Below are positions 1 through 12,711 of a stretch of DNA of 20,850 bases, in pieces (position 1 is the first letter of the stretch; each line of letters begins with the position of its first letter). The notes under the pieces were generated by a model, which saw only the letters and a list, made by a program, of their open reading frames with translations, had not been told where the DNA came from and did not search any database. This DNA comes from Sphingobacteriales bacterium (GTDB taxonomy: Bacteria > Bacteroidota > Bacteroidia > Chitinophagales > Chitinophagaceae), in contig JAHEFC010000011.1 in the NCBI GenBank assembly GCA_024640385.1, positions 1-20,850 of the forward strand, written 5' to 3'. The position numbers were made by a program, and so were the translations under genes.

Positions 1-4679
<4,679 letters not shown>

Positions 4680-4839: not shown

Positions 4840-5262
4840 ATGGCTAAGGCAGAAAATAAAACCCAGCCAACAAAAAAAACTTTAAAAGAGTTTATCGAGG
4901 GTATTGAAGATGACCAGGTTCGGAACGATTGCAAGAAACTTGGAAAATTCATGGAAAAGGTTTCGGGCGAAAAACCTGTGATCTGGGGCGATTCGATCGT
5001 GGGTTTTGGCAAATATCATTATAAGTATGCCAGCGGACATGAGGGCGACAGTTGCCTGATCGGTTTTTCTCCACGCAAGGATAAACTATCCATATACACG
5101 AACATCTATCTCGATAATGTTGATCCGCTGCTGAAGTCGCTGGGCAAATTCAAAAATGGCAAGTCCTGCATCTATATCAAAAAGGTTGACGACATCGACC
5201 TTGACGTGTTGGAGAAAATTCTTAAAGCGGGCATGAAGAAGCTCAAAGAACTCTACGGTTAG
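4840..5262 (+). CDS. DUF1801-family protein
   Basis: A soluble 140-residue protein with no signal peptide or membrane segment. The pattern KTLKEFIEGIEDDQVRND, then the VIWGDSIVGFGKYHYKYASG segment, FSPRKDKLSIY, and a C-terminal basic helix is typical of DUF1801 (YdhG-like fold). The family has no settled biochemical role, so I assign none. It stands alone behind about 160 bases of divergent intergenic DNA. A TATAAT at 4826-4831 exists but lacks a partner at useful spacing, and there is no TAnnTTTG box near the start. Its TAG stop (5260-5262) coincides with the first bases of an octamer repeat array, so the gene ends exactly where the repeat begins. Confidence 0.85.
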   Translation: MAKAENKTQPTKKTLKEFIEGIEDDQVRNDCKKLGKFMEKVSGEKPVIWGDSIVGFGKYHYKYASGHEGDSCLIGFSPRKDKLSIYTNIYLDNVDPLLKSLGKFKNGKSCIYIKKVDDIDLDVLEKILKAGMKKLKELYG

Positions 5263-5298
5263 AGAGCCAGAGAGGCAAAGAGTCAGAGAGCCAGAAAA
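5260..5298 (+). repeat. Octamer array, left arm of inverted pair 1
   Basis: Four 8-base units in a row on the plus strand: AGAGAGCC (5261-5268), AGAGAGGC, AAAGAGTC, AGAGAGCC (to 5292), then AGAAAATG. The TAG stop of the DUF1801 gene is the T at 5260 plus the first two bases of the first unit. Against the reverse complement of 5748-5786 it matches at 34 of 39 positions without gaps. Confidence 0.9.
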
Positions 5299-5371
5299 TG
5301 TTGGTGGGTTTCTCTCAAAATATTGTTTAAAGGGCTATTTATTCTCTTTTCGCCGATACTACTTTCATTCC

Positions 5372-5734
5372 ATGGAGCGAAAGCTATTGAGGCAACGGGT
5401 TATTGAATTTTCAATATCGATACAGAAGGTTGTAAAACAACTCGAACAGGTCAACCAGTATGTTATATCTAAACAATTCCTAAGGTCAGGAACGGCTATT
5501 GGCGCACTGGTTTTCGAAGCTGAGCAATCTGAAACCAGGGACGATTTCATTCACAAAATGAAAATCGCTTTAAAGGAGGCTAACGAGACCAGATATTGGC
5601 TAACGTTAGTCGAAAATCTCATATCATTAGACAACGGCATAGCTGAAGATCTTCTCATTATCATAAAAATCCTAAACAAGCGTATTGTAACTGCCAAATT
5701 GAACAGGCCAAAAAAGAAAAGAGAGAAAGACTGA
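5372..5734 (+). CDS. Four-helix-bundle protein of the 23S rRNA intervening-sequence (S23/IVS) family
   Basis: The 120 residues are almost wholly helical by pattern: RQRVIEFSISIQKVVKQL, QYVISKQFLRSGTAIGALVFEAEQ, DFIHKMKIALKEANETRYWL, and a last helix LLIIIKILNKRIV with a basic tail. FLRSGTAIGA and the KEANETRYWL stretch are the family hallmarks. Such proteins are encoded in intervening sequences within 23S rRNA genes of several bacteria and, commonly in Bacteroidota, as stand-alone genes; relatives act with diversity-generating retroelements (Avd). Their function outside those settings is unknown. No rRNA and no reverse transcriptase is present here. The gene sits alone between inverted octamer arrays, like an IVS between its stem arms, and looks more A+T-rich than its neighbours by eye. 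The last codons (KKKREKD) run into a purine tract before AGAATTC. Confidence 0.9.
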   Translation: MERKLLRQRVIEFSISIQKVVKQLEQVNQYVISKQFLRSGTAIGALVFEAEQSETRDDFIHKMKIALKEANETRYWLTLVENLISLDNGIAEDLLIIIKILNKRIVTAKLNRPKKKREKD

Positions 5735-5738
5735 GATA

Positions 5739-5786
5739 GAATTCTGACTTTTTGCCTCTCTGACTCTCTGACTCTCTGGCTCTCTA
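5739..5786 (-). repeat. Octamer array, right arm of inverted pair 1
   Basis: On the minus strand five units follow the T of the permease stop: AGAGAGCC (5785-5778), AGAGAGTC, AGAGAGTC, AGAGAGGC, AAAAAGTC (to 5746), then AGAATTC (5745-5739), four bases from the stop of the four-helix-bundle gene. The permease TAG (5786-5784) is made of the base before the array and its first two bases. A transcript across both arms could fold into a stem of about 39 pairs enclosing the internal gene. Confidence 0.9.
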
Positions 5787-8300
5787 CTCCTGTCTTAATA
5801 TTTCTAACGGAGACCTTGACACAACGGTTCTGATATTCATCAGCCCGATAAAAACAGTGAGTGCACAGATCACTAAAAAAATGATCAGCAAGGGTACCAG
5901 GTCCGGGCCATAATTCATTTCAAAACTGAAATAGGCCAGGGCCCATCCGGCGAGCAGGGAGAGTACAATGCCCGTGGTGGCGGCAAGTGCCCCGATAAAA
6001 AAATATTCGATCGCATTGATCATGTAGACCTGTTTTCTTTCTGCGCCCAATGTTCTTAACAAAACACTTTCCTGGATACGCTGGTATTTACTGATCAACA
6101 CAGAGGCGATCAATACGATTAATCCGGTGATGATGCAGAATCCCGCCATGAAACGGATCACGAAACCGATCTTGCTGAGTATGTTATCAAGTATGCCGAG
6201 TACCAGCCCAAGGTCTATGACAGAAATATTAGGAAAAGTTCTGACCAATACCTGTTGGAATTTGGCAGACGCTTCAACGGATGGCACGTGAGTGAGCAAC
6301 ACATGAAACTGGGGTGCATTTTCCAGCACGCCGGTGGGGAATACCACCAGGAAGTTAGTCTGGATGCGGTTCCAATCCACTTTCCGGTAACTGCCCACGA
6401 TGGTTTTTATCATCGCTCCCTGTACGTTGAAGATCATGGTATCGCCCAGGTCAATGCCGTTTCTCTTGCCATAACCTTCTTCGATGGAAACAATTACATT
6501 GTTATTTTCTGATTTGCCGGTCCATTTTCCTGCTGTGATCTTTTCTGAACTGATCAGGCTGTCGCGGAATGTAGCGCGGTATTCCCTGCTGAATACCCAG
6601 GGCTGGATCTTGATGGTACTATCTTTCTCTAAACTGGCTGCATTGATATTGTTGATCGATTCCAGGCGCATGTTTACAATAGGCACGGTACCGTTCACTT
6701 CCAGGCCCTGTTGCCTGGTGAGCTCCATCACCTTTTCCCGCTGTGAGGTTTGTATATCGAACAGTACAATATTTGGTTGATTGCCTGACGAAGAAAGCGT
6801 GACCCTGTTCAGCAGTAATGACTGGATGATGATCAGTGTTGAGATCAACGCAGTGCCCAGTCCGATAGAGACCAACAGTATGGTGGTCTGGTTATTGGGC
6901 CTGTAGAGGTTCGACAATCCCTGCCGCCACAGGTAGCTCCATGAAGTTGGAAAGAATTTCCGGGTGGTCCACATCAGCGCTTTAGCGATCAGCGTAAGTG
7001 CACCAAATGCAATGATCACTCCAAGGGTGAAGAACATGGCTTCTTTCCAGTTTTTCAACTGCAGCCTGGTGAAGAAAAATATGAAAGCAATGATCAGCGC
7101 ATATACCAGTATGGTAAATACATCTCTTTTCAATTCGGGCTGGTAGGAGATACGTAATGTGTTCAGCGGGGAGATGTTCCGGATAGATACAAGTGGCAAC
7201 AGTGCAAATAACACAGAAATGATAAGCCCCAATACTAAACCCTTCCATACCGCAGACCAGCTCATCACGGGGTGCAGTTCCACCGGCAATAATTCTTTCA
7301 ATACGAGGGGCAGGAACTGGTGGATGACCGTACCCAGCAGTACGCCCACTACCGAACCTATCAGCCCGATCACTATGATCTGTATGAGGAAAATAAGAAA
7401 TGCCTGTAACGACGTTGTACCCAGGCAACGAAGCACTGCAATACTGTTGATCTTTTCTCTTACATAGATATGGATCGCGGAAGCAACGCCGATACATCCC
7501 AGGAGCAGAGCAATAAATCCGATCAGAGAAAGAAACCGGGCCAGGTCACGGAATGATCTTGCTGTTTCTTCTTTTTTGGATTCTATCGTATCGATATTCA
7601 ACCCTTCGCTCCTGAAAGCAGGTTCTAATTTTTCAACAAGGGCCTTGACAGATTGCGGATTATTGAGCTTATAATAGAATGTTGTGCTGATCCTGCTGCC
7701 TTTCTGGTCCAATGCCGTTTCGGGTAGGGTTGACAAGGGAATGTAGACTACGGGTGCTACTGAAGCACCGAGGCCTGTTTGGCCGGGAGCGGCCTCAAGG
7801 CTGCCGGAAACAATATACCCTCTTTCGCCTATCCTGACGGAGTCGCCCACTTTGATATTGAATTGTAACAGCAAAGCCTTGTCAACTATGGCGGTTTTAT
7901 TGCTTTGAAATTCACGACCAGCATTCGCGGGTTTTGTATCCAGCGATCCGTAATACGGATAGTCACCGGCCAGAGCCCTCACCTGGATCAACCTCGTGCC
8001 TCCATTGGATGGGAAATAGACCATGGAGGAAAATGATTTCTGCTCCGATTTCTTGCCCTGTATAGAGTCAAGTAACTTCTGTGCTTTTTCAGAGATCTTT
8101 TTATTGGTGCTTATATCAAGGTCCGCACCGATCAGTGTGGCGGCCTGTTGATCAATTTCCCTGCTCAATGTATCTGACAAAGAAAAAATAGAAACCAGTG
8201 CAGCAATGCCAAGTATAACAGAAGAAATAAATAATAGCAAGCGGGAGAAATTCCTCCTGCTGTCTCTCCAGGCCATTTTGATCAACCATTTGATATCCAT
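5784..8300 (-). CDS. ABC transporter permease with two FtsX domains, YbbP-like
   Basis: An 838-residue inner-membrane protein. Seen: an N-terminal hydrophobic segment (about 20-42) followed by a long periplasmic MacB-type domain, three membrane segments around 255-385 (FLSLIGFIALLLGCIGVASA and onward), two more around 390-440, a further segment near residue 475 starting the second half (GLGTALISTLIIIQSLLL), a second periplasmic domain, and a final three-segment FtsX block ending in SRSPLEILRQE. The doubled-FtsX form of 800-plus residues with an adjacent ATPase and a divergent TesA-like gene is the YbbP layout. YbbA-YbbP has been linked to lipid or hydrophobic-compound handling but its substrate is not firmly known. 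The start lies 10 bases after the YbbA-like stop, so they form an operon. Its TAG stop is the beginning of an octamer array. Confidence 0.88.
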   Translation of the reverse strand: MDIKWLIKMAWRDSRRNFSRLLLFISSVILGIAALVSIFSLSDTLSREIDQQAATLIGADLDISTNKKISEKAQKLLDSIQGKKSEQKSFSSMVYFPSNGGTRLIQVRALAGDYPYYGSLDTKPANAGREFQSNKTAIVDKALLLQFNIKVGDSVRIGERGYIVSGSLEAAPGQTGLGASVAPVVYIPLSTLPETALDQKGSRISTTFYYKLNNPQSVKALVEKLEPAFRSEGLNIDTIESKKEETARSFRDLARFLSLIGFIALLLGCIGVASAIHIYVREKINSIAVLRCLGTTSLQAFLIFLIQIIVIGLIGSVVGVLLGTVIHQFLPLVLKELLPVELHPVMSWSAVWKGLVLGLIISVLFALLPLVSIRNISPLNTLRISYQPELKRDVFTILVYALIIAFIFFFTRLQLKNWKEAMFFTLGVIIAFGALTLIAKALMWTTRKFFPTSWSYLWRQGLSNLYRPNNQTTILLVSIGLGTALISTLIIIQSLLLNRVTLSSSGNQPNIVLFDIQTSQREKVMELTRQQGLEVNGTVPIVNMRLESINNINAASLEKDSTIKIQPWVFSREYRATFRDSLISSEKITAGKWTGKSENNNVIVSIEEGYGKRNGIDLGDTMIFNVQGAMIKTIVGSYRKVDWNRIQTNFLVVFPTGVLENAPQFHVLLTHVPSVEASAKFQQVLVRTFPNISVIDLGLVLGILDNILSKIGFVIRFMAGFCIITGLIVLIASVLISKYQRIQESVLLRTLGAERKQVYMINAIEYFFIGALAATTGIVLSLLAGWALAYFSFEMNYGPDLVPLLIIFLVICALTVFIGLMNIRTVVSRSPLEILRQE

Positions 8301-8310
8301 ATCCCGTTTG

Positions 8311-9003
8311 TTATTGATGATATGGATTAGCCGTTTCTTCTACCAGCTTGCCACCCTTGATGCGTATGATCTTATTTGTTCTGGCAGCCAGGTCCGCGTT
8401 ATGGGTCACAACGATCAGGGTAGTACCTGCATCCCGGTTGAGGCTGAAAAGAAGGTTTTCAATTTTCTCACTGGTTTCCGCATCCAGGTTTCCGGTAGGT
8501 TCATCTGCAAACAGGATCCTGGGCGTATTTGAAAATGCCCTGGCCAGGGATACCCTTTGCTGTTCACCGCCACTCAGTTGTACCGGGTAATGATGGCCCC
8601 GGTCTGCCAGGCCCACCCGGTCCAGCAGTTCCAGCGCCTTGGGACGTATGTTTTTTTCCCGTCTCAGTTCCATGGGCACCATGATATTCTCCAGCGCAGT
8701 CAACGTTGGCAGCAATTGGAAATTCTGGAATATGAATCCAATATATTTGTTCCTCACGGCGGCACGCTGGTCCTCATTCAGCGTTTCGAGGCGGATATCA
8801 TTCAATACAACTGATCCGGAACTGGCACTGTCCAGCCCAGCACAAAGCCCCAGCAGTGTGGTTTTCCCGCTTCCTGAAGGACCTACTATGGCCAGGGTGG
8901 AACCTTCCTCCACGCTGAAGCTGATATCTTCCAGTACGGTAAGTGTTCTGCCCGCGCTGGTATATGTTTTTCTTACGTGTTCTGCCTTTAATATTGTATT
9001 CAT
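8311..9003 (-). CDS. ABC transporter ATP-binding protein, YbbA/LolD-type
   Basis: A 230-residue nucleotide-binding subunit. Seen in order: A-loop region YTSAGRTLTVL, Walker A GPSGSGKTT, Q-loop IFQNFQLLPTLT, signature LSGGEQQR, Walker B ILFADEPTGNLD, and H-loop VVTHN. The GEQQRVSLARAF form and size are typical of the MacB/LolD/YbbA class that drives FtsX-type permeases. I chose ATG 9003; a TTG three bases upstream would add one residue and cannot be excluded. It is the first gene of a two-gene operon with the YbbP-like permease and is divergent from the TesA-like gene across 70 bases. It should power the permease by ATP hydrolysis on the cytoplasmic side; the transported substrate is unknown. 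Confidence 0.93.
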   Translation of the reverse strand: MNTILKAEHVRKTYTSAGRTLTVLEDISFSVEEGSTLAIVGPSGSGKTTLLGLCAGLDSASSGSVVLNDIRLETLNEDQRAAVRNKYIGFIFQNFQLLPTLTALENIMVPMELRREKNIRPKALELLDRVGLADRGHHYPVQLSGGEQQRVSLARAFSNTPRILFADEPTGNLDAETSEKIENLLFSLNRDAGTTLIVVTHNADLAARTNKIIRIKGGKLVEETANPYHQ

Positions 9004-9073
9004 CAATCCTATTTCAATACCAATTTATCTTATTTTAGTTTTACACCCCGAAAGCTTTTTTGTTCAACCATTC

Positions 9074-9763
9074 ATGATGAAAAAGATCAGCATATACCTG
9101 TTTTTGCTTGCGATGTTCACTGGCCTGTCCTGCGGAGCTCCTGAAAAGGAGAAGGCGCCCTCCAAAGCAGAAGAAAAACAACCCGACAAATCAAAGAAAA
9201 AAAGCATTGTTTTCTTTGGAGACAGTCTCACCGCCGGTTATGGCCTTGACGATCCATCACTGGCCTATCCTGCGCTGGTGCAGAAAAAACTGGATTCAAT
9301 GGGCTTGAATTATGAGGCTGTTAATGCCGGTGTGAGCGGTGAAACATCAGCTGGTGGACTGGGACGTATTGACTGGATATTGAAGCAGCCGGTAGATATT
9401 TTTGTACTTGAACTGGGAGCTAATGATGGACTCAGGGGGATCTCGCCGGAGGAGACCCAGAAAAACCTGCAGGGGATCATAGACAGGGTTAAGGCAGTAA
9501 ACCCTTCGGCTAAGATCGTAATTGCAGGTATGCAGGTTCCCCCCAGTATGGGTCAGCGTTACGTGAAACAATTCAGTGCCATCTTCCCCAAACTCGCCAA
9601 AGACAATAATGGGATCCTGATCCCTTTCCTGTTGGAAGGCGTTGGTGGTGAACCTGAACTTAACCAGGCAGATGGCATACATCCAACGCCGGAAGGGCAC
9701 AAGGTTGTAGCGGCTACTGTTTGGAAATACCTTGAAAAGAGAGTAAGAGAGGAAGAGAGATAG
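9074..9763 (+). CDS. TesA-like SGNH/GDSL esterase, predicted lipoprotein
   Basis: A 229-residue hydrolase. Seen: signal sequence MMKKISIYLFLLAMFTGLSC with lipobox GLSC and Cys20, so it is probably a lipid-anchored periplasmic or outer-membrane protein; a charged linker (21-43); then FFGDSLTAGYG with nucleophile Ser51, the NAGVSG block, LGANDG, and DGIHPTPEGH with the catalytic Asp and His. This is the arylesterase/acyl-CoA thioesterase I layout; E. coli TesA is a soluble periplasmic form, so the lipid anchor differs. The reading frame is open far upstream, across the ATPase gene, but the lipoprotein signal fixes ATG 9074 (9077 is also possible). The C-terminal tail KRVREEER is encoded by octamer repeats and the TAG stop lies at the joint of units 3 and 4. 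Confidence 0.9.
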   Translation: MMKKISIYLFLLAMFTGLSCGAPEKEKAPSKAEEKQPDKSKKKSIVFFGDSLTAGYGLDDPSLAYPALVQKKLDSMGLNYEAVNAGVSGETSAGGLGRIDWILKQPVDIFVLELGANDGLRGISPEETQKNLQGIIDRVKAVNPSAKIVIAGMQVPPSMGQRYVKQFSAIFPKLAKDNNGILIPFLLEGVGGEPELNQADGIHPTPEGHKVVAATVWKYLEKRVREEER

Positions 9764-9792
9764 AGAGATAGAGAGAAAGAGAGAAAGAATTC
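9738..9792 (+). repeat. Octamer array, left arm of inverted pair 2
   Basis: Six units on the plus strand: AGAGAGTA (9738-9745), AGAGAGGA, AGAGAGAT, AGAGAGAT, AGAGAGAA, AGAGAGAA (to 9785), then AGAATTC (9786-9792), which touches the stop codon of the channel gene at 9793. The first three units are coding: they give the last residues of the TesA-like protein, and its TAG is at 9761-9763. Positions 9762-9787 match the reverse complement of 10781-10806 at 24 of 26 bases. Confidence 0.9.
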
Positions 9793-10728
9793 TTAATCCA
9801 GCATGTCATAGCTGTTGAGCTTGTTCAACTCCAGGATTGTTGTAGATCCGTCTTTCGACATATGATACATCGGTACGAACTTGGCGTTATGGATGATCTC
9901 ATTGAAAGTATAGGAAGTTCTTTTGATCACCGTATTTGAAAACACAGGATCGAAACCATCGATGTGTACATACACTTCCAGATCCGATCTTTTAAAATCA
10001 TCGGCGGTCATATTAAAAAGGGGGCTGTTCTCATCGATAGGGTGCACGACGGTCCAGTTCGTACTCAGGGCATCAACATGCGAACGTTCCAGCTGAAGAT
10101 TGTAAAAATGATATTCCGAGCCATGTAATAATGCTGCGTTCACGTTGATATGGGAGTTGGTAAGGTAATGGTCATTCTTGTAGGGAACAACCCTCATCAT
10201 GAGGGCTTTGCCACCTTTGAACGGCGCGATGACCGCGTTATGTGAAAAATGCAAAAAGGCCTTAGGCCTGGTGAATCTTCCATAATAAATACCTGTCACC
10301 AGTGCAAAGAATAACCATCCGGTCATGGTCTCGAATGAAGCAATAATATTTGCCAGGTGGCCGGTGGGATTGATCCTGCCGTAGCCTACTGTTGTAAAAG
10401 TTTGAGTACTGAAAAAGAAAACTTCCATTAATTTCCCACCTGCCGAATTCGAAATGTAGCCGCTGAGTTCGTCGAAGCCGATGAGCAGGTAAAAAATAGT
10501 GAAGATGATGTTGATCACCAGATAGGTACTGATCAGCAGGAGCAGGAATTTCCAGGAATTCAATTCAAGCAGGTTGGAGTAAATGCTCATCCTTTGCCAT
10601 GCGGGATAGCCAGTTTTCCTGATGTTGAAACTTCCATCTTTATTTACAAAACGTTCCCCTACCTGGTTAGCCTGGACGCCGAAACCGGTATTCGCATTTT
10701 CGCCTGGAGGTGGATTGAAGTCAGCCAT
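9793..10728 (-). CDS. Inward-rectifier-type potassium channel (KirBac family)
   Basis: A 311-residue channel subunit, expected to form a tetramer in the inner membrane. Seen: an N-terminal tail, the amphipathic slide-helix region (about 40-58), first membrane helix WKFLLLLISTYLVINIIF (about 59-84), pore helix and selectivity filter TVGYG at 113-117, second membrane helix (about 124-151), then a cytoplasmic beta-rich C-terminal domain (from about 155) with FKGGKALMMRV and the late TNWTVVHPIDENSPL segment, all typical of Kir. I chose ATG 10728; the frame stays open to 10830, but that extension is the complement of the UbiD gene end and the repeat. No Shine-Dalgarno is visible. It follows the UbiD gene on the same strand and lies alone between inverted octamer arrays. 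Gating ligand unknown. Confidence 0.93.
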   Translation of the reverse strand: MADFNPPPGENANTGFGVQANQVGERFVNKDGSFNIRKTGYPAWQRMSIYSNLLELNSWKFLLLLISTYLVINIIFTIFYLLIGFDELSGYISNSAGGKLMEVFFFSTQTFTTVGYGRINPTGHLANIIASFETMTGWLFFALVTGIYYGRFTRPKAFLHFSHNAVIAPFKGGKALMMRVVPYKNDHYLTNSHINVNAALLHGSEYHFYNLQLERSHVDALSTNWTVVHPIDENSPLFNMTADDFKRSDLEVYVHIDGFDPVFSNTVIKRTSYTFNEIIHNAKFVPMYHMSKDGSTTILELNKLNSYDMLD

Positions 10729-10767
10729 ATTGAAAGATTGGTGTATTGAGGAAGAATTCAGGATCGA

Positions 10768-10806
10768 GAATGCTGGCTCACTTTCTCTCTTTCTATCTAA
10801 CTCTCT
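10768..10806 (-). repeat. Octamer array, right arm of inverted pair 2
   Basis: On the minus strand: AGAGAGTT (10806-10799), AGATAGAA, AGAGAGAA, AGTGAGCC (to 10775), then AGCATTC (10774-10768), one base from the AGAATTC that ends two other arrays. The first units encode the last residues (QRVR) of the UbiD protein and its TAG stop falls inside unit 2. AGAGAGT-AGA is read in the same frame here and in the TesA-like gene, giving RVR in both. Confidence 0.85.
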
Positions 10807-12650: not shown

Positions 12651-12662
12651 AGGACACAACTG

Positions 12663-12711
12663 CAGGTTGCAGGTTACAGGTTGCAGGTTACAGGTTGCAG
12701 GTAACAGGGAT
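12663..12711. repeat. Heptamer tandem array (CAGGTTG/CAGGTTA)
   Basis: Units on the plus strand: CAGGTTG 12663-12669, CAGGTTA, CAGGTTG, CAGGTTA, CAGGTTG (to 12697), then the degenerate CAGGTAA (12698-12704) and CAGGGAT. G and A alternate at the last position, so the real period is 14 bases. It lies between the divergent UbiD and cysE genes, about 13 bases upstream of the UbiD -7 box and about 115 upstream of the cysE start. Length change here would alter the sequence at the UbiD -33 region. Confidence 0.9.

Follow-up and report, generated by a model that had tools for sequence, protein, structure and literature searches.

The window analysed here is a 20,850-nucleotide stretch of the genome of a Sphingobacteriales bacterium (assembly GCA_024640385.1, contig JAHEFC010000011.1). 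Between positions 5260 and 5786, it contains a gene of the S23 or 23S rRNA intervening-sequence protein (IVP) family, a small family best known for its insertions in ribosomal RNA, enclosed by two inverted tandem arrays of the octamer AGAGAGNN. This segment probably represents a widespread class of element, in which an S23/IVP gene lies between inverted arrays of a private unit, organized like the REPtron (repetitive extragenic palindromes, REP, with their REP-associated tyrosine transposase, RAYT) and related to the intervening sequences (IVSs) of rRNA genes. The class is characterized by its anatomy, the matching of its arms, largely private units, the dispersal of these units (four units), their placement at gene ends, presence or absence between genomes, and a correlation between S23 protein and unit. 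The differences between units, the dispersal within the own genome and the spread across phyla were not foreseen in a preliminary description of this DNA.

The S23 element of the window

The S23 gene (Table 1) matches PF05635 with an E-value of 1.3e-18 and TIGR02436 with 3.6e-20; beyond the S23/IVP models, its protein matches only two hypothetical-protein models, far under their cut-offs. The two arms agree at 34 of 38 aligned positions (5260-5297 with 5749-5786). The stop codons of the flanking DUF1801 and YbbP genes lie 521 bp apart, and each TAG runs on into AGAGAG. In total, four AGAGAGNN arrays with a period of 8 are found in the window (5261-5295, 5743-5789, 9736-9788 and 10777-10806). 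No Rfam family was matched in the window at gathering scores, and the S23 element is flanked by the DUF1801 and YbbP genes. Three proteins gave no match to defence families in PADLOC, and tblastn returned no match to phages. In the following, G-numbers denote genomes, with G000 as the source genome, C-numbers contigs, and L-numbers fetched loci.

Table 1 Features of the S23 element, the K+ channel pair and two further array families.
Feature	Position	Strand	Family match
Left arm: AGAGAGNN array, starts on the TAG stop of the DUF1801 gene	5260..5297	+	
S23 / 23S rRNA-intervening-sequence protein gene, four-helix bundle, 120 aa	5372..5734	+	Pfam, NCBIfam
AGAATTCT palindromic core, inner end of right arm	5738..5745	.	
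Right arm, an inverted AGAGAGNN array that ends on the TAG of the YbbP-like gene	5749..5786	-	
DUF1801 protein (host gene), left arm starting from its TAG stop	4840..5262	+	PF08818
YbbP-like ABC permease (host gene), right arm starting from its TAG stop; the stop is TGA in G032	5784..8300	-	
Solo AGAGAGNN array covering the TesA-like gene's end (TAG at 9761-9763)	9736..9788	+	
AGAATTCT core of the TesA-side array	9786..9793	.	
Inward-rectifier-type K+ channel gene, not taken as cargo	9793..10719	-	PF17655, PF07885
Solo AGAGAGNN array covering the UbiD gene's end (GSLYQRVR*, TAG)	10777..10806	-	
RCAGGTK array (second dispersed family); the S23 element on contig C63 has this unit	12661..12708	+	
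GTCAAAA array (third family); the S23 element on contig C539 has this unit	1555..1591	-	

Matched arms across the genus and many phyla

The source genome holds five S23 genes, four of which lie between matched inverted short tandem arrays. For the fifth (C264), one arm is visible and the contig end cuts the other. The units of the five are AGAGAGNN, GCAGGTK, AAGTCAA, AAGTAAA, and GAATGTG. Within the genus, 27 of 41 genomes match PF05635, and the 69 matches yielded 63 analysed and 58 usable loci. Weak or partial matches (G012, G038:C110, G033:C446, and G031:C260), a gene with three stops (G020:C9:15699) and one merged with its neighbour (G034:C299) were left out. Arms were scored by aligning the 300 nt left of the S23 gene to the reverse complement of the 300 nt on its right, and the threshold was set at 17 or above. 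It was reached by 48 of the 58 usable loci, compared to 6.8% for arms swapped between genomes and none of the 34 usable control loci (nuoF, YbbP); these controls are conserved core genes, with GxxExxY genes as the sole other small-gene comparison.

A second set comprised 80 named loci from many phyla, chosen as the best of at least 579 from a scan of one genome per species and not at random. The threshold was reached by 52 of its 78 usable loci (swapped arms 3.1%), distributed over Bacteroidota (26/41) and other phyla (26/37). The positive loci include those of Geobacter, Thiohalocapsa, Omnitrophota, Planctomycetota, Cloacimonadota, and Atribacterota, as well as Clostridia, Gastranaerophilales, and candidate phyla. 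A period of 7 fits best in 29 of 48 genus elements and 28 of 52 named elements, followed by 8 and 9, and no period is clear in 12 and 11, respectively. The C content of the 5' arm is 8-10%. In three orthologous loci (L006, L007, and L010), the S23 start is preceded by a terminator-like hairpin (AACGCCAGGCTTT..AAAGTCTGGCGTT, with T-rich sequence after it), which separates it from the left arm.

Arms were mixed among 11 S23 loci on viral contigs: four near-identical loci score 10, and the others reach 38 (L363), 21 (L361), 18 (L360 and L362), 16 (L364), and 11-12 (L355 and L359). From 44 plasmid records found, 13 S23 loci were examined. Seven of the 12 cyanobacterial ones score at least 25 (L318 among them being outscored by a swap), one scores 15, and four score 8-12, three of these with unit runs visible by eye.

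Private units and their dispersal

Arms are seldom shared. Different S23 elements within a genome match in 6 of 86 ordered comparisons over 11 genomes, all six in G020, and elements of different genomes match in 7.5%. Four units were chosen by the author to follow their dispersal, counted as exact hits that overlap and include the arms of the S23 elements themselves. Three consecutive AGAGAGNN units occur 67 times in the source genome, compared to 3 for the reversed control, and 0 times in 40 genomes of the same genus; plain AG runs appear in two more distant genomes. The preliminary description had reported four phased 8-base arrays and suggested a scan of the genome and its relatives, and these counts establish the arrays as real. 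GCAGGTK is found 279 times in the source genome and in none of the 40 sisters, with a reversed control of 0. GGATTARY occurs 136 times in G040 and in none of 40 other genomes. AGTGGAAK has 47 hits in G016, 4 in G008 and 0 in 39 others; 20 of the 47 lie in the S23 element's own arms, and 27 elsewhere on ten contigs. Array listings cover about 97 of the 279 GCAGGTK hits and about 97 of the 136 GGATTARY hits.

The dispersed copies take the form of short palindromes or of solo arrays at stop codons, with the G strand pointing inward. As dispersed, non-coding copies with terminal inverted repeats, the palindromes resemble miniature inverted-repeat transposable elements. Many RCAGGTK copies are compact palindromes of the form X-core-rc(X) with the recurring order GCAGGTT ACAGGTT GCAGGTT, which points to copying and not to independent slippage. 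Per 200 kb, period-7 arrays number 22 in G019 (eight S23 genes), 2 in G024 (two) and 1 in G040 (one); the S23-free genomes G021 and G007 have 0 and 1, respectively (196 kb sampled for G007). At non-homologous sites, more similar S23 proteins tend to have more similar units (r = 0.22 between protein identity and unit similarity, reached by 0 of 2000 permutations). The named set gives r = 0.16, reached by 3 of 2000. The correlation within the genus sits in 35 pairs above 50% identity, where mean similarity is 0.42 compared to 0.21-0.24.

These data bear on the unlikely alternative that S23 is a loop-inserting element, landing in the hairpin loops of arrays and palindromes that arise by themselves through slippage or template switching. 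Passages of PMC4990558, in which rRNA intervening sequences are described as having replaced tetraloops, would agree with it, as would the existence of array families without an S23 partner. Yet random landing should strike abundant families repeatedly, and units are rarely shared between elements; the near absence of period-7 arrays from two S23-free genomes and the correlation between protein and unit also argue against loop insertion.

Placement of arrays at gene ends

Array placement, strand and stop use were counted on fetched stretches of the source genome. For 36 AGAGAGNN arrays, a gene end lies on the 5' side at a distance of 150 nt or less; this is a stop codon in 29 cases and a start in 7. 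In 11 of the 29, the array starts precisely at -2, with the AG of a TAG stop. A looser count (n=42) gives 31 at a stop, 9 at a start, and 2 at neither. Taking in all five array families searched, TAG terminates 24 of 46 genes with an array at the stop, compared to 16 of 113 without a nearby array (Fisher p = 1.7e-6). Pairs of AGAGAGNN arrays up to 300 bp apart direct the G strand inward in 6 of 6 cases and never outward. For RCAGGTK, the stretches were chosen from a list partly for visible pairs; 10 of 11 such pairs point inward, 1 has both arrays on the same strand and none points outward, and 18 of 24 arrays face a stop. Within 24 nt of their inner end, 14 of 42 arrays carry GAATTC, compared to an expectation of about 0.5, and the inner AGAATTC forms the middle of the palindrome X-AGAATTCT-rc(X). 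The preliminary description is thereby borne out in four respects, namely the start of arrays at gene ends, the use of the flanking gene's TAG, the inward purine strand, and the AGAATTC inner end.

That the arrays are ordinary microsatellites, paired in inverted orientation by chance, is next to impossible. Short units and variable copy number are what microsatellites would show, and this candidate is refuted by the reversed controls (3 versus 67 and 0 versus 279), the scans of 40 sisters, the strand and stop-codon bias, the AGAATTCT core, and the matching of arms compared to swapped pairs.

For two array families of G000, with the units AGGCGAG and TTAGCCAA (L046, L047, L050, and L061), no S23 partner was seen in the assembly, which is 94% complete; we return to these below.

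Presence and absence at orthologous sites

In G032, no S23 gene separates the orthologues of YbbP and DUF1801 (the latter at about 50% identity): the two converge, and their stop codons adjoin with 0 bases in between. The comparison of orthologous loci, also suggested in the preliminary description, has thus provided an empty site for the window element. A second site is the nuoF|nuoG gap, which measures 451 bp with an S23 element in G000. Among 27 sister loci, 20 have gaps of at most 76 bp and four more are short; three remain, of 176 bp in G029 (L117), of 786 bp in G034 (L096), and of 517 bp in G031, where the gap holds a GxxExxY gene.

Across seven groups of orthologous sites, both arms clearly differ together between species in two (L006 versus L007/L010, and L017 versus L008/L011). 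The other five were uninformative, showing a shared unit, low scores or flanks in opposite orientation, with some cross-scores above the own score. At some shared sites (L024/L028 and L014/L020), S23 elements occupy one intergenic site in opposite orientation between species, as if there had been an inversion between the arms or two insertions. Replacement of the last YbbP codon by the right arm was considered and dropped, as YbbP of G032 ends in RQE* like that of the window; other sister proteins end in RQEV*, REES*, REEG*, RED*, or RDAS*. On contigs C539 and C264, the source genome has nuoG 5' regions that differ and that each adjoin an S23 gene of their own (the two at 57% identity), which suggests two nuo loci or mixed strains in the assembly.

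The K+ channel pair and the 3'-end alternative

The other two AGAGAGNN arrays of the window flank a K+ channel gene, and their arms align at 37 of 46 positions (9754-9799 against 10761-10806), so that the inverted pairing proposed in the preliminary description is found around both genes. Reading this pair as one cassette was rejected. Two other wide RCAGGTK pairs enclose unrelated ordinary genes of 307 and 330 aa, and the relatives of the K+ gene in G022 and G031 (40-50% identity) had no TesA or UbiD match on their short loci. The arrays are best read as two separate gene-end copies, since each lies on the stop of its own host gene and the TesA side keeps the AGAATTCT core. UbiD ends in GSLYQRVR* in the window and in GSLYG.., GCLEG.. 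or similar in 11 sister loci; no array was seen by eye after the UbiD stop in any of these 11 (from 32 matched sister genomes).

The preliminary description had offered two models, and each fits one of the pairs. The first, of IVS-related cassettes, accounts for the S23 pair, with arms at four of the five S23 genes of the source genome and 48 of 58 loci in the genus, the empty site in G032, and an rRNA-located element of Azospirillum presented below. The second, of a unit attached to 3' ends, describes the K+ pair with its dispersed gene-end copies, AGAATTCT core and UbiD end.

Another explanation would regard the arrays as functional 3'-end elements, such as terminators, mRNA stabilizers or G-quadruplexes, with S23 as their RNA-binding regulator. 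Exact placement at stop codons accords with this, as does the RNA fold of the window S23 element, which beats 100 shuffles (z = -4.4). Rehm et al. moreover describe most such repeats as transcribed, in passages of PMC4692102. Gene orientation can be added: by a simple longest-ORF (open reading frame) rule for neighbours, S23 in the named set reads with both neighbours at 58 loci (58 of the 70 with both neighbours called) and is reversed at 2, with 6 convergent, 4 divergent, and 10 incomplete. The corresponding genus counts are 17 with both neighbours, 11 against both, 21 convergent, 4 divergent, and 10 incomplete. The same-direction bias also fits a dependence on host transcription in many phyla. 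On the other side, G-U wobble bias is absent (107 vs 116; 99 vs 126), leaving selection for pairing in the sense RNA unsupported. Units vary between species, the UbiD stops of the sister loci are free of arrays, and selection against insertion in genes would likewise leave arrays at gene ends. We consider the 3'-end explanation improbable.

Proposed mechanism and points against it

We postulate that the low-copy S23 gene acts as the keeper of a cognate repeat, usually of 7 or 8 nt, which would have spread as short palindromes and as solo arrays on stop codons. The S23 protein may recognize the hairpin or the single strand of its own unit and, along with an enzyme from the host or elsewhere, may help this unit to be copied into gene ends. 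The classical intervening sequences of 23S rRNA would be elements of this kind located in rRNA. Given the negative wobble test, an intermediate at the level of DNA or of a single strand is no less likely than a function in RNA. Templated or reverse-transcribed synthesis of arrays is possible because the arm strand is poor in C and because of the link to Avd given below. Taken further, and put forward tentatively, S23 proteins could be sequence-matched keepers throughout, with one system behind rRNA intervening sequences, the stand-alone four-helix genes found within operons, and the heptamer arrays known from cyanobacteria, Xanthomonas, Beggiatoaceae, and Bacteroidota.

Several observations weigh against interpreting the window segment as a member of a class of S23 elements that keep their own repeats. 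The arm threshold is missed by 10 of the 58 loci in the genus and by 26 of the 78 in the named set, the wobble bias is absent, and no catalytic domain was found in S23. The AGGCGAG and TTAGCCAA families have no visible S23 partner. Array load was compared in six genomes only; among them G015 has one S23 gene and 0 period-7 arrays, and the S23-free G021 has one period-14 GTTGTAA-like array. The correlation between protein and unit is weak, and common descent of whole elements, not recognition, could explain it. No two S23 copies in a genome exceed about 62% identity, which implies that the S23 gene itself is not amplifying. Movement of S23 elements was not observed, and a target-site duplication was not established: none was seen at the window element, while GATAA possibly stands at both ends of the nuoF|nuoG element, as judged by eye.

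Finally, GxxExxY (PD-(D/E)XK) genes also tend to lie in inverted arms, with 7 of 17 scoring at least 17, so that S23 is not the sole gene of this kind. The GxxExxY loci (L155-L177, PF13366; L161 and L165) show units such as ACAGAGAC/GCGGAG and CGCAAAG, and a parallel element family is possible.

Relation to rRNA intervening sequences and other known systems

On an Azospirillum plasmid, S23 lies inside a 23S rRNA gene with GACRGAN-like heptads on both sides and an arm score of 17, where swaps reach at most 12. It is a single case; Rfam revealed no further rRNA-located S23 among 40 more loci (39 on genome contigs, 1 viral). Intervening sequences occur in both 16S and 23S rRNA genes, and S23 genes are without known function, according to passages of PMC4990558. 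A solved S23 structure is that of XCC0516 from X. campestris (2gsc), a homopentamer in the same passages. The window element resembles the 23S rRNA intervening sequences in its S23 ORF between complementary ends and in its scattered presence, and the Azospirillum rRNA case has heptad arms. Unlike them, it lies between protein genes and not in rRNA, and its unit is dispersed elsewhere in the genome. Removal from the transcript by RNase III is a further trait of the 23S rRNA intervening sequences.

Dispersed heptamer arrays have been described in part of PMC4692102, with GGGAATC in Xanthomonas and GGGGAYT in Nostoc; those of Xanthomonas stand at stop codons with the G strand in sense, and X. campestris has 70 inverted pairs. 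TAACTGA arrays are described for Beggiatoaceae and others in passages of PMC4679880, and would correspond to the 3' arm in the proposed scheme. The RCAGGTK arrays share the unit size, intergenic position, sense G strand near stops and inverted pairs of the arrays in those passages of PMC4692102. The arms of some cyanobacterial plasmid S23 genes (GGGAACA, GGGAGTA, or GGGTGTA) resemble the Nostoc GGGGAYT arrays. A link of arrays to S23 is absent from the passages of both papers, and no paper joining S23 to heptamer arrays appeared in searches of an open-access library, a scope that excludes most subscription journals.

On two cyanobacterial plasmids (L318 and L325), S23 with heptad arms lies between cas6 and cas4, followed by cas1d in L318. 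Passages of PMC3936711 list 18 23S_rRNA_IVP genes in cas loci, for which such a position may be the explanation. The PHROG family of Avd, the accessory protein of diversity-generating retroelements, matches one S23 protein (L013, E 3.8e-12) and not that of the window.

Heptamer arrays at gene ends have been known genome by genome, without an agreed origin, and S23 genes are common. Tying an array family to one S23 gene of the same genome makes both the origin of the arrays and the function of S23 testable. Intervening sequences of rRNA would gain a wider family, and a reason is offered for the 23S_rRNA_IVP genes in cas loci. As a whole, the data suggest a widespread, little-noticed kind of DNA element.

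The REP-RAYT system consists of a low-copy gene flanked by inverted repeats, the relatives of which are dispersed in the genome as palindromes. RAYT is an HUH/Y1 nuclease, and the REP palindrome carries a conserved tetranucleotide. In contrast, the S23 protein folds as a four-helix bundle in which no catalytic site is known, and its repeats are arrays of 7-9 nt units and not single REPs. Common to both systems is a gene flanked by inverted copies of a repeat that is dispersed in its own genome.

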